Positions 1,159 through 64,000 of a DNA stretch of 64,000 nt are shown here, one piece after another. The stretch's first letter is position 1. Each line of letters opens with the position of its first letter. Where the stretch lies: contig NZ_CP017641.1 of the NCBI RefSeq assembly GCF_001983935.1, positions 1,240,001 through 1,304,000 of the forward strand, given 5' to 3'. The position numbers and the translations under genes were made by a program. The stretch is from Fuerstiella marisgermanici (lineage in GTDB: Bacteria; Planctomycetota; Planctomycetia; Planctomycetales; Planctomycetaceae). The notes beneath the pieces were generated by a model. That model did no database searches, was not told the origin of the DNA, and saw only the letters and a list, made by a program, of their open reading frames with translations.

Positions 1159-1944
1159 ATGTATTCCACTCTTCGATCGGCCGCTGGTGCTGCCGTCACC
1201 GCCTCATTTCTTTTGGCATCCAGCCATCTCCACGCCGACATTATCTGGAATGCCTCATCCGGGCAAACACCGACCGGCACCGATCCGCTTTGGCTGCAAG
1301 TCGACGACGAGGATGATTTTGACCCCGTCATTGGTTCCTCCGGCGGCATCAACCACATGACTCTGCAAACCGACTCTGAAGGTATGCCGACGAATACGAG
1401 CAGAATGTACTTTCAAAGGCTTCCAGCAACTTTGCCGCTGGAAGCTGGCCGGGATCTGGTCGTCGAGTTTGAAATGCAACTGGTCTCCGGCACATCGTTC
1501 CTGCCAGCGTCCAGAGCACCAGCAACTGTCGCGATCAATGTCGCTGCGGGGGCTGCCATGTATCTGAATTTCACCGAAACCGGCATCGCTTTTCAGCAGT
1601 CCCAAACCAGCTTTTTTGATCAGGCTGCAATCAACACATCTGACTTCCATCAATACAGGCTCGAAATCGATCACGAAGCCGGAGCCGGTGGCGATGTCCT
1701 TCTGTACCAGGACGGCATATTGGTACAGACCTCATCGTTGCGGAACCAGCCATCGTTTTTCGGAACTCAGCCGAGAGTCTGGTTTGGCGAAGGCACGAAC
1801 GCCGCCTTTGGAGAATCCAACTGGCGTTCGTTCAGCGTCACCGCCGCCGTGCCCGAACCTTCGTCGTACGCCCTGCTGGCCGGAGCGACCATCGTGTTTG
1901 GCTGGCGGCGAAGGAAACGTTTATCAAGTCGGTCGCTGCGTTAG
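1159..1944 (+). CDS. PEP-CTERM sorting domain secreted protein
   Basis: A 261-residue secreted protein with an N-terminal signal peptide (hydrophobic AAGAAVTASFLLASS, then a likely cut near residue 27). The central domain looks like a concanavalin/LamG-type beta sandwich, with alternating strands such as LVVEFEMQLVSG and YRLEIDHEAG. The C-terminus has VPEPSS, the hydrophobic stretch ALLAGATIVFGW and a basic RRRKR end, which is the complete PEP-CTERM signal. It is the second such gene in 2 kb. The body does not look like a close duplicate of the gene at 33-728; only the tails are alike. Sugar binding is an inference from the fold guess. Start: the ATG gives a normal signal peptide with no extra residues. 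Confidence 0.85.
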   Translation: MYSTLRSAAGAAVTASFLLASSHLHADIIWNASSGQTPTGTDPLWLQVDDEDDFDPVIGSSGGINHMTLQTDSEGMPTNTSRMYFQRLPATLPLEAGRDLVVEFEMQLVSGTSFLPASRAPATVAINVAAGAAMYLNFTETGIAFQQSQTSFFDQAAINTSDFHQYRLEIDHEAGAGGDVLLYQDGILVQTSSLRNQPSFFGTQPRVWFGEGTNAAFGESNWRSFSVTAAVPEPSSYALLAGATIVFGWRRRKRLSSRSLR

Positions 1945-3580: not shown

Positions 3581-3762
3581 GGCGGTTCAGTTCCCTCGAA
3601 AAAGTATCAATCGTTCGATTATAGTGGTTTCCGTCGCGGAACAGGTAGTGGCTGATGGACTGGAATGATCCGCGTCGGCCGCATTTCGATCTCATTCGCC
3701 GTTTCTTGCTGCCGTGTGGCGGCGAATATTGTATTTCTGAAAAATCGGCGGACAGACGATTC

Positions 3763-4410
3763 ATGTTGCAGGTCATTGGACTCGGTTATCCACGCACCGG
3801 CACGATGTCTTTAAAGCACGCTTTGGAGACGCTGGGCATTGGGCCATGTTACCACATGATTGAAGTGTTTCGTCGTCCTGAAGATGCTGACTTCTGGCTG
3901 GCCGCACTGAACGCCAACGGCAGCAAAACGGATTGGAATCGCGTGTTCGCCGGGTTTCCGTCGACAGCCGATTGCCCAGCGTGCTATTTTTGGCAGCCAT
4001 TGTGGGAATGCTATCCGCAAGCAAAATATGTTCTCACTGTGCGAAACGCGGACGACTGGTACGACAGCTTTCTGTCGACCGTTTACGAAGCGATGCAGCA
4101 CCCGGAACGGTCGCCCGATGAAAAGCACGCAGCAGTGCAGCGGATGGCGAAGAAGCTGATTCTGGACACCATGTTTCAGGGCCGCTTCGACGAACGTTCG
4201 TTCGCGATCGACAGCTACGAACGCCACAATCAGACGGTGATCGATACGCTGCCGAAAGATCAGCTACTGACGTTTAACGTGGCAGATGGCTGGAAGCCAC
4301 TGTGCGACTTTCTGGAAGTCGCGGTGCCCGACGAACCGTTTCCGCAATCGAATACGCGTGAAGAATTTCAGCAGCGGTTTGCCGTCGAACCACCAAATGC
4401 ATCGCCGTAA
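3763..4410 (+). CDS. Sulfotransferase-family protein
   Basis: A 215-residue protein starting MLQVIGLGYPRTGTMSLK. The YPRTGT loop is the 5'-phosphosulfate-binding P-loop of the sulfotransferase fold, and the layout (short, with NADDWYDSF and WKPLCDFL near the end) fits the Sulfotransfer_4-type family. The frame is open back to an ATG at 3655, but the extra 36 residues have no family character, so I chose the internal ATG at 3763. The reaction would be transfer of sulfate from PAPS to an unknown acceptor; some members of this family have no proven activity. It lies head-to-head with the kinase gene and near a sulfatase, which may be chance. Confidence 0.75.
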   Translation: MLQVIGLGYPRTGTMSLKHALETLGIGPCYHMIEVFRRPEDADFWLAALNANGSKTDWNRVFAGFPSTADCPACYFWQPLWECYPQAKYVLTVRNADDWYDSFLSTVYEAMQHPERSPDEKHAAVQRMAKKLILDTMFQGRFDERSFAIDSYERHNQTVIDTLPKDQLLTFNVADGWKPLCDFLEVAVPDEPFPQSNTREEFQQRFAVEPPNASP

Positions 4411-7528: not shown

Positions 7529-9004
7529 ATGATGATCAACGCCGACAACTCCAGGCTTTTGTATAGTGTTCTGCTTAGTTGCATCGCTCTGCTGCCATGC
7601 CAGCAGGTACGCGCGGCGAACGATGAGCCCAACGTTGTCATCATTCTGGTCGATGATATGGGCTACGGAGATCCCGGCTGCTACAACGCCGAATCCAAAA
7701 TTCCGACCCCACATATCGACTCAATCGCGCGCGACGGCATCAAATTCACCGACGCTCATGCGCCTGGTCCGCTATGCCATCTGTCTCGTTACGGGCTGCT
7801 GACGGGCCGCTATCCCTTCCGAGCGAAAGTGGGGGCGTGGCGAGACGGGCCGACGATTACCGATCAGCAGGTGACGCTGCCCGCGTTTCTGAAAGCCGCC
7901 GGCTACGACACGGCCATGGTGGGCAAGTGGCATCTGGGCTTTGCAGAAAACGGGTACGACAAAGCCATGCTCGGCGGCCCGGTTCATCGCGGCTTCGATT
8001 CGTTTTTTGGCATTCCCGCGTCGACCGATATTCCGCCGTACTTCTACATTCGTGGCGACAGGGCCGTCGCGGCACCGTCAAATCGTATCGAAGCGAACAA
8101 CAGTGACGGTTGGTCGCCAATTCAAGGGGCGTTCTGGCGGGCCGGCGGGATTGCTCCCGACCTGACGCTAAAGGGTGTGTTGCCGCGTTTTACGAATGAA
8201 GCCGTCGATGTGATTGCGGCTCATGGGAAAAAGGACAAGGCTGATCGGGCACCATTGATGTTGTACCTTGCCTACCCGGCACCACACACGCCGTGGCTTC
8301 CGTCGCCGGAATTCGTTGGCAAGAGTGGAGCTGATATGTACGGCGATTTTATGATGATGGTTGACCACAACATCGGTCAGGTTTTGCACGCGATTGATGA
8401 GTCTGGCTTAAGCGACGACACGCTATTGGTTTTCACGTCTGACAATGGCCCGACATGGTACGACAAAGACGTGAAACGGTTCGGGCACGATAGTTCGGGC
8501 GGATTGCGAGGCATGAAGGCGGATGCGTGGGAAGCTGGCCACCGAATGCCATTTGTGGTCCGCTGGCCGGGGCGAGTGCAAGCGGGGTCGACGTCGGATC
8601 GGCTGATTTCTTTTGTCGACATTTATGCGACGCTGGCGGCGATCCTGAAACAGCCACTGCCCGCCACCGCCGCACCGGATAGTTTCGATTTCCACGATGC
8701 ACTGCTGCAGAAGCCGTCTGCCGACACCGTCGCTCGTCGCGTGCTGCCTTTACAATCGGGGACTGGAATGATGACCATTCGGTCTGGCGACTGGAAGCTC
8801 ATTCAGGGATTAGGGTCCGGTGGATTTTCTCAGCCCCGCAAAATCCAGCCGCAACCTGGCGGACCGATCGGGCAACTGTTCAACCTGAAGACTGACCTCG
8901 CAGAAAAACAGAATGTCTACGCCGAATCGCCAGCTGTGGTGGCTGAGTTGTCAGCTGTCCTGGAACAGGTGAAAACAGCAATTGGCCACCGACTCATGAA
9001 ATGA
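7529..9004 (+). CDS. Secreted sulfatase with unusual active-site motif
   Basis: A 491-residue member of the sulfatase / alkaline phosphatase superfamily. A signal peptide (about 1-29) precedes VVIILVDDMGYGD, which holds the metal-binding aspartates. GKWHLGF and DNGP are further metal and sulfate ligands, and the SGGLRGMK segment is typical. The formylglycine motif is normally C-x-P/A-x-R; here residues 83-87 read CHLSR followed by YGLLTGR, so the third position is leucine. The cysteine is present but its conversion to formylglycine may be impaired. The substrate is probably a sulfated polysaccharide, as for most planctomycete sulfatases. It is transcribed away from the HEAT/TPR gene; there is no operon partner. 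Confidence 0.88.
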   Translation: MMINADNSRLLYSVLLSCIALLPCQQVRAANDEPNVVIILVDDMGYGDPGCYNAESKIPTPHIDSIARDGIKFTDAHAPGPLCHLSRYGLLTGRYPFRAKVGAWRDGPTITDQQVTLPAFLKAAGYDTAMVGKWHLGFAENGYDKAMLGGPVHRGFDSFFGIPASTDIPPYFYIRGDRAVAAPSNRIEANNSDGWSPIQGAFWRAGGIAPDLTLKGVLPRFTNEAVDVIAAHGKKDKADRAPLMLYLAYPAPHTPWLPSPEFVGKSGADMYGDFMMMVDHNIGQVLHAIDESGLSDDTLLVFTSDNGPTWYDKDVKRFGHDSSGGLRGMKADAWEAGHRMPFVVRWPGRVQAGSTSDRLISFVDIYATLAAILKQPLPATAAPDSFDFHDALLQKPSADTVARRVLPLQSGTGMMTIRSGDWKLIQGLGSGGFSQPRKIQPQPGGPIGQLFNLKTDLAEKQNVYAESPAVVAELSAVLEQVKTAIGHRLMK

Positions 9005-9085
9005 GTGGCAGGCACGACGATTGAAATCGCAAACTCAGCGAAATCGATCCGCAGTGTCCGGTTCGCCGTCGCCGCCATTTCCCAT

Positions 9086-9352
9086 CATCGGGAGCACCGC
9101 CGGCGCTTCAGCTCTCAACCCGTCACCCGCCTCCCACGCCAACCAGCCGCTTGGCCGCCCCCGCACATGGCGACCATCGGGAGCACCGCCGGCGCTTCAG
9201 CTTCCACACCGTCACCCGCCTTCCACGCCAATCGGCTGCGGGGCCGCCCCCGCCCCCGCACACGGCGACCATCGGGAGCACCGCCGGCGCTTCAGCTTCC
9301 ACACCGTCACCCGCTTCCCACGCCAATCGGCTGCGGGGCCGTCCCCGCCCAC
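9086..9352. repeat. Three GC-rich tandem repeats
   Basis: Three direct copies begin at 9086, 9175 and 9270 (spacing 89 and 95). Each opens with CATCGGGAGCACCGCCGGCG and runs through CTTCAGCTY, a CCGTCACCCGC segment, and a GGCCGCCCCCGC end; copies 2 and 3 are the most alike, and copy 2 has a longer CCCCCG run. They fill most of the gap between the sulfatase and murE. All frames give low-complexity Arg/Pro/Ala peptides, so this is not coding. A related, more divergent copy lies at 43407. There are no unique spacers, so this is not a CRISPR array. Confidence 0.85.
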
Positions 9353-62910: not shown

Positions 62911-64000
62911 CTATTCGTCTTCGATTTTCTTGATCGCAGCCGGTAAGTCTTTATCCACAATCCCCTGTACGCCACGCCCATCACTATGAAGTCGGTCGTC
63001 GACTCCATACTGAATGTCCTCGTGATCGATCTCCCAGAACGCAGCAATTTCCTTACGAGGAACCGTTTTCAGGTTTCGGACTAGCCGAAAACCTACACCG
63101 CGAGCTGGGTCGTCCGTAAACCACCACGGGCTCTTAGGCAAATTTGGGTCCGTAGTTCGCCATTCTTCAGAATCGGACCCAAGTCGCGACGCACACCGGC
63201 ATTCTTCTGCTTCGAATTCCCACGATCCGCCGCGAATCGCACGAGGGTCAACCTCTTCGGGCCGCACCCAGTCTTTCGCCGCATTTAGCATTCCGTCAGT
63301 AGTTTTATAAGGCTGGAGATAGTCAATGACCCATTCGGCCGCGTTGCCGTGCATGTCGTACAGGCCCCACGGGTTCGGTTTTTTTTGGCCGACATTTTTT
63401 GTTCCTTCATCATCTGTGTTGTCGACATACCACGCGTAATCGCCTAGTTTTGAGGCATCGCTGCCGAAATGGTAAGCAGTTGAGGTGCCCGCTCGGCAGG
63501 CATATTCCCATTCCGCTTCTGTCGGGAGGCGGAATTGACACTCAGTAATTGCCGACAGCCACTTGCTGTATTGCTTGCAGGCGTACTGAGTCACCGTGAC
63601 GGCCGGTTGTCTGGGATCGGCTCCGTATTCGAACGTAAAATCTGGTTCGTAAAGCACTGTGGGAGCCGTGATGGCGTCAACTTTGTTCTCTTCCGTGACC
63701 GTTCGGATTTTGGCGACCTCGAACGCTTTGAAAGCATCGTACAGATCCATGAAGATCTTGTATTCGGCCCACGTGACTTCGTGGCGAGCCATCCAATACG
63801 GATCGACAGCGATTTTCCGTTGAGGGCCTTCAGTTTCCTCTCGGCCGGCTTCGTCCTGAGGGCTGCCCATTGTGAATTCGCCGCCTGGGATGGGTTCCAT
63901 CCAGAACGACACGTCTGTGCCTGGAATTTTCACTTCATAAGGAATCATGTAGCCGTCATCGACTTTGACAAAGCGACCGGATGACGGCTTTTCTTTGACC
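62911..64000 (-). CDS. SUMF1-domain protein (5' end outside window)
   Basis: At least 362 residues of a formylglycine-generating-enzyme-like (SUMF1) protein. The frame stays open to the right edge (VKVDDGYMIPYEVKIPGTD reads through the ATG at 63948), so the gene starts beyond 64000. Hallmarks are EPIPGGEFTMGSP, RLPTEAEWEYACRAGT, NPWGLYDMHGNAAEWV and RGGSWEFEAEECRCASR. The two catalytic copper-binding cysteines of true FGE enzymes are missing in that last segment, so it probably does not make formylglycine. It may be a binding or structural protein, as with many planctomycete SUMF1 proteins. Confidence 0.85.
   Translation of the reverse strand, partial: VKEKPSSGRFVKVDDGYMIPYEVKIPGTDVSFWMEPIPGGEFTMGSPQDEAGREETEGPQRKIAVDPYWMARHEVTWAEYKIFMDLYDAFKAFEVAKIRTVTEENKVDAITAPTVLYEPDFTFEYGADPRQPAVTVTQYACKQYSKWLSAITECQFRLPTEAEWEYACRAGTSTAYHFGSDASKLGDYAWYVDNTDDEGTKNVGQKKPNPWGLYDMHGNAAEWVIDYLQPYKTTDGMLNAAKDWVRPEEVDPRAIRGGSWEFEAEECRCASRLGSDSEEWRTTDPNLPKSPWWFTDDPARGVGFRLVRNLKTVPRKEIAAFWEIDHEDIQYGVDDRLHSDGRGVQGIVDKDLPAAIKKIEDE

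Follow-up and report, generated by a model that had tools for sequence, protein, structure and literature searches.

A sulfatase family of Fuerstiella marisgermanici and other bacteria with an interchangeable aliphatic residue at the motif proline position, probably matured by ordinary FGE

The motif around the catalytic residue of sulfatases has been worded in several ways. A passage of PMC5066984 gives the pattern [CS]-[STACGMV]-[PA]-[STAGF]-R and reports, for 4058 aligned sulfatases, Pro in 87% at the third motif position (+2, counted from the Cys), Ala in 369, and every other residue in <1%. As rare substitutions of <1% each are thus already on record in that source, a deviation at +2 is not new as such. 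Elsewhere, the consensus appears as CxPxR (in a section of PMC4505483) or, with targets of anSME included, as C/S-x-P/A-S/x-R (in part of the text of PMC10154612). The same part of PMC10154612 describes S1_15 enzymes, which act on 6-sulfated galactose or GalNAc via a His/Asp/Arg triad. Leu at +2 is also known from human IDS P86L and mouse Ids P88L, but as a loss-of-function mutation: an extract of PMC10185571 gives an activity of 0.04 vs. 4.72 umol/h/L blood for mouse Ids P88L and ascribes two roles to the proline. In the family described here, by contrast, Leu at +2 is a natural state.

The window analyzed in this study, a stretch of 64,000 nucleotides from the genome of F. marisgermanici, contains an ORF at 7529–9004 (+) that starts with ATG and encodes a FGly-type (S1) sulfatase of 491 aa (PF00884 (Sulfatase) profile, 186.2 bits vs. 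a cut-off of 25). Bases 7775–7789 read Cys-His-Leu-Ser-Arg at residues 83–87, in agreement with the original prediction, and Pro/Ala is indeed absent from +2; whereas the prediction had named this position alone, the published pattern from PMC5066984 is also violated at +1 (His). Compared with canonical FGly sulfatases, fold, calcium site, Cys and Arg are common, and the +1 His and +2 Leu differ. The relevant features of the ORF are the following:

7652–7657 (+): Asp42-Asp43, calcium ligands by homology (the role is the one given for their counterparts in a passage of PMC5066984)
7775–7789 (+): catalytic pentapeptide Cys83-His84-Leu85-Ser86-Arg87, TGC CAT CTG TCT CGT
7781–7783 (+): codon CTG of Leu85, the +2 position, which is M/L/V/P/A across the family
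7796–7810 (+): LLTGR element, residues 90–94, C-terminal of the pentapeptide, read from the sequence
7925–7933 (+): Lys133 and His135 (GKWH), conserved active-site region by homology
8285–8287 (+): His253, active site by homology
8441–8446 (+): Asp305-Asn306, calcium ligands by homology
8516–8518 (+): Lys330, active site by homology

By homology, the CHLSR protein thus retains D42, D43, K133, H135, H253, D305, N306, and K330 of FGly sulfatases, which bears out the expectation that the other metal ligands are intact. An N-terminal hydrophobic segment, judged by eye, makes secretion likely. Taken as a whole, the sequence data suggest that the gene probably encodes a secreted, active S1 sulfatase, matured mainly by an ordinary FGE that tolerates an aliphatic residue at +2. 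We infer that Cys83 of the exported protein would be converted to formylglycine by the general oxygen-dependent FGE of the cell, whose recognition would depend chiefly on the Cys and the Arg at +4, with any aliphatic residue tolerated at +2 and Pro as one among several; formylglycine and calcium would then hydrolyze a sulfated sugar by the usual S1 route.

An AlphaFold2 model computed from a 68-row alignment of the window and fetched loci (mean pLDDT 91.3, pTM 0.90) places Cys83 at the beginning of a helix (residues 83–92). The seven best fold matches were S1_15 sulfatases (Z 42.5–44.5, rmsd 2.2–2.5, 30–38% identity), headed by an S1_15B enzyme at Z 44.5, and Foldseek listed the same S1_15 entries on top (E 2e-43 to 2e-38). 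These entries, i.e., 7oze (BT1624), 7p26 (BT4631), 7ozc (BT3109), the carrageenan entries 9bas (S1_15A) and 9bau/9bav (S1_15B), and 6s20, which we take to be the S1_15 enzyme BT3333, have the same overall fold and lead the sequence matches, too. The likeness to S1_15 denotes nearest sequence and fold. The aligned relative 9s7x (subfamily not typed here) has an intact CTPSR motif, in contrast to CHLSR in the window sulfatase, and the motif Cys, present here as Cys83, is replaced by Ser in several of the crystallized chains. A further difference concerns an Asp-Arg pair of five aligned solved chains, which corresponds to Asp167-Ile168 in the window sulfatase; Ile is found at this position in 85/85 family members of the best-80-of-184 set described below. 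The Arg of the five chains is presumably the Arg of the galacto-recognition triad, and its replacement by Ile168 would make 6-sulfated galactose or GalNAc an unsafe guess for the substrate. Ile in place of Arg, together with an aromatic set of the family's own (W104, W195, and W256 in 85/85, W310 and W334 in 84/85 members of the best-80-of-184 set), suggests that the family likely acts on a different sulfated sugar.

Relatives were collected by scanning genome contigs, which yielded 184 matches, the best 80 loci of which were used (104 others unread). Together with loci from the window's relatives and the window gene, these gave 91 CHxSR rows and, after removal of duplicates identical over residues 61–300, 85 distinct members, a set that is biased to close relatives and is referred to as the best-80-of-184 set. 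The pentapeptides of its members were CHMSR (43), CHLSR (17), CHVSR (13), CHPSR (11), and CHASR (1); hence, C83, H84, S86, and R87 are invariant (85/85), and variation is confined to +2 and to aliphatic residues. The question raised by the original prediction, whether leucine is conserved among the closest sulfatases, is thereby answered in the negative, as +2 varies between M, L, V, P, and A with its aliphatic character kept. Over the best 80 of 184 loci, Leu, Val, and Pro at +2 are each encoded in four ways, and this large number of synonymous codons indicates that the constraint acts on the amino acid. A sequencing error in the CTG codon, one base away from CCG (Pro), had been named as a possible refutation; with M/L/V at +2 in 73/85 members of the best-80-of-184 set, from many separate assemblies, an error of sequencing or assembly is refuted and we assign it next to no probability.

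According to record titles, the best-80-of-184 set comprises Planctomycetota (51), Verrucomicrobiota (24), Bacteroidota (2), Acidobacteriota (1), and unplaced bacteria (2). Most members stem from MAGs, Fuerstiella MAGs being among the nearest relatives of the CHLSR sulfatase, and named strains are represented as well (Rhodopirellula europaea 6C and Rubripirellula obstinata CECT 8602, both CHMSR). D42, D43, K133, H135, and H253 are identical in 85/85 rows of this set, and D305, N306, and K330 in 84/85, the exception (L023) being a fragment that is gapped there. The ten catalytic and metal-site residues are therefore kept wherever sequence is present in these 85 rows, and the earlier suggestion of an inactive enzyme, in other words a pseudo-enzyme, is left unsupported. 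Ala at position 81 accompanies Pro/Ala at +2 (8/9 Ala rows of the best-80-of-184 set), and other columns score equally high; as 6/12 Pro/Ala rows form a single clade, this co-variation is uninformative. A phylum-wide search for the DNA pattern of LCHxSRYG matched 20/392 sampled genomes vs. ~27 for the reversed control (hand count), in a sample that contained the F. marisgermanici genome alone of the known family-bearing genomes. The similar number for the control and the miscellaneous +2 residues of the matches indicate that these are mostly due to chance. Among open-licence PMC papers, no description of a C-H-[MLVPA]-S-R subfamily or motif was found.

A tree of 105 rows ('quick' type, SH-aLRT support, 37/102 inner branches open) was calculated with the motif columns left out. 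A single branch (SH-aLRT 98) divides the 85 members of the best-80-of-184 set from 20 outgroup sulfatases with Pro (19) or Gln (1) at +2. Within the family (best-80-of-184 set), the tree requires 17 changes when all +2 states are told apart and at least 5 when only exchanges of Pro/Ala with Met/Leu/Val are counted; as about a third of the inner branches are open, these counts are valid for this tree alone, and the minimum is lower if only the starred branches are considered (4 for the label Pro with the outgroup counted in). L094, the member that branches off first, has Pro at +2, and Pro is also seen at several unconnected points further into the tree. Since P/A and M/L/V swap among otherwise alike enzymes, a tolerated position fits the data better than new chemistry.

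Deviations at +2 also occur in other sulfatases of F. marisgermanici. Its genome has 94 PF00884 matches, and the motif was read in 85 of them (84 fetched loci and the window gene; 9 rows miss the motif region). Here, +2 is Pro in 67 (including CAPTR at locus L151), Ala in 10, Thr in 4, Val in 2, and Leu and Ser in 1 each. Eight of the 85 are consequently without Pro/Ala: CHLSR of the window gene, CRTSR, CVTTR, CTVSR, CWVSR, CHSSR, CSTCR, and CSTSR, the seven further ones being encoded at loci L154, L155, L170, L177, L179, L208, and L216. All ten checked residues are kept in 5/8, whereas CTVSR, CSTCR, and CSTSR differ or are gapped at some. Because Thr and Ser occur at +2 in these other sulfatases, the aliphatic-only rule applies to the family and not to the whole genome. 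The nucleophile is Cys in all 84 sulfatases tabulated. Two loci (L197 and L200) read CRPSL, with Leu in place of the +4 Arg.

With regard to maturation, the F. marisgermanici genome contains 11 PF03781 matches, the best of which (L121) is a canonical copper-cysteine FGE with a C-x4-C pair (CSDQYC); of the 11 loci, L121 alone has such a pair behind an RGG element. The host FGE maps to C1:6864493–6865791. Another PF03781 protein, encoded in the window at 63163–63891 (−), is without the C-x4-C pair of a true FGE. One anSME (L132) was identified with 485.6 bits vs. a cut-off of 349.45, so that both types of maturase are present in the same genome as the CHLSR sulfatase. The presence of FGE is, however, no proof that FGE acts on Cys83. 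Among 58 relatives searched (F. marisgermanici included), the family was found in 12, anSME over the cut-off in 11, and an FGE homologue (E ≤ 1e-40) in 48. In ten of the 12 family-bearing genomes the member is full-length; G006 and G026 have 68% fragments, G006 being counted on its family match. As a separate observation, ten of the 58 genomes (G021, G022, G024, G026, G027, G030, G038, G040, G044, and G053) have no FGE homologue at E ≤ 1e-40 and 42–49 matches each to the window sulfatase, with anSME over the cut-off in G024 alone; in the part of the matches that was read, an RGG element with a C-x4-C pair behind it was absent from nine PF03781 stretches of G021, G038, G040, and G044.

These distributions bear on the question of which enzyme would modify Cys83. 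It is unlikely, in our estimation, that the radical-SAM anSME rather than FGE mainly converts the Cys, although the F. marisgermanici genome encodes one and anSME exceeds the cut-off in 8/12 family-bearing vs. 3/46 other genomes. Seven of these eight co-occurring genomes belong to one genus, by which the co-occurrence is confounded, and the consensus for anSME targets likewise has P/A at +2 in the part of PMC10154612 cited above. Moreover, four genomes have the family without anSME over the cut-off (G004, 99% complete; G029, 100%; G017, 79%; G026, 90%). As G004 and G029 keep both the family and an FGE with the C-x4-C pair, anSME is seemingly unnecessary for persistence of the family; G026 has a CHVSR fragment at a contig edge, with neither an FGE homologue at E ≤ 1e-40 nor anSME over the cut-off. 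In some family-bearing genomes, anSME could nevertheless be the main maturase. An FGE specially adapted to the family would agree with the FGE homologue (E ≤ 1e-40) in 11/12 family-bearing genomes, but 37/46 genomes without the family have one, too. Two FGE columns are fixed in 11 family-bearing genomes and reach ≤30% in 16 others, yet neither is exclusive, and a comparison of 27/30 fetched FGE loci from these genomes (11 family-bearing, 16 others) revealed no residue exclusive to family-bearing genomes. Nor did a search with the F. marisgermanici FGE and anSME over the best 80 of 184 loci (866,900 bases) reveal a maturase conserved beside the family, as it gave one weak FGE match (L032, 37% over 117 residues) and none for anSME at E 1e-5; apart from a merged sulfatase cluster, no cluster of neighboring ORFs occurred in >13/80 of these loci. 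Such an adapted FGE is therefore very improbable.

Maturation by ordinary FGE also has to be weighed against readings in which Cys83 escapes the usual conversion. Cys83 might stay unconverted and work as a plain cysteine with participation of His84, or the protein might be a non-catalytic binder; in favor of this, His84 is found in 85/85 members of the best-80-of-184 set vs. 0/20 in the outgroup, both the +1 His and the +2 Leu are off the pattern excerpted from PMC5066984, and an unmodified choline sulfatase has reportedly been characterized (PMC6189696). Arg87 is retained, however, as are the calcium-binding residues and the Lys and His of the active site, and the occurrence of P/A forms in several unconnected parts of the tree argues against changed chemistry, so that we regard an unconverted Cys83 as unlikely. 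A wider version, in which the CH[MLV]SR family as a whole stands outside the FGE/anSME rule and has a Cys-His84 active site in a sulfatase fold, with Cys83 as a thiol or otherwise modified, seems highly doubtful to us. The original prediction had also allowed for another mechanism; neither this nor a dedicated maturase is supported, as no such maturase was found beside the best 80 of 184 loci or among the 27 FGE loci compared, P/A and non-P/A forms swap on the tree, and seven further sulfatases of the same genome are without P/A. Maturation by a different route, likewise suggested there, keeps some probability.

FGE recognition is of use in sulfatase annotation and in protein engineering by the 'aldehyde tag'. 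A family in which Met, Leu, Val, and Pro alternate at +2 offers natural substrates for probing how much of CxPxR matters. It stands in contrast to the human Hunter-syndrome mutation, in which the equivalent change from Pro to Leu is disabling. For annotation, strict motif filters would drop probable sulfatases, i.e., the 8/85 of F. marisgermanici without P/A at +2. The activation signal is probably looser than textbooks say.

Regarding other features of the window, a GC-rich repeat of 95 nt lies just downstream of the sulfatase gene in three near-tandem copies (9066–9344). With ≤1 mismatch allowed, the genome has 30 copies of its 23-nt core vs. 0 for the reversed control, which identifies it as a dispersed repeat. 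Inspection of the sequence by eye further revealed a sulfotransferase-like ORF near the sulfatase gene at 3655–4410 (+), and two PEP-CTERM-like exported proteins at 33–728 and 1159–1944 (+), with VPEPSSYALL near the C-terminus.
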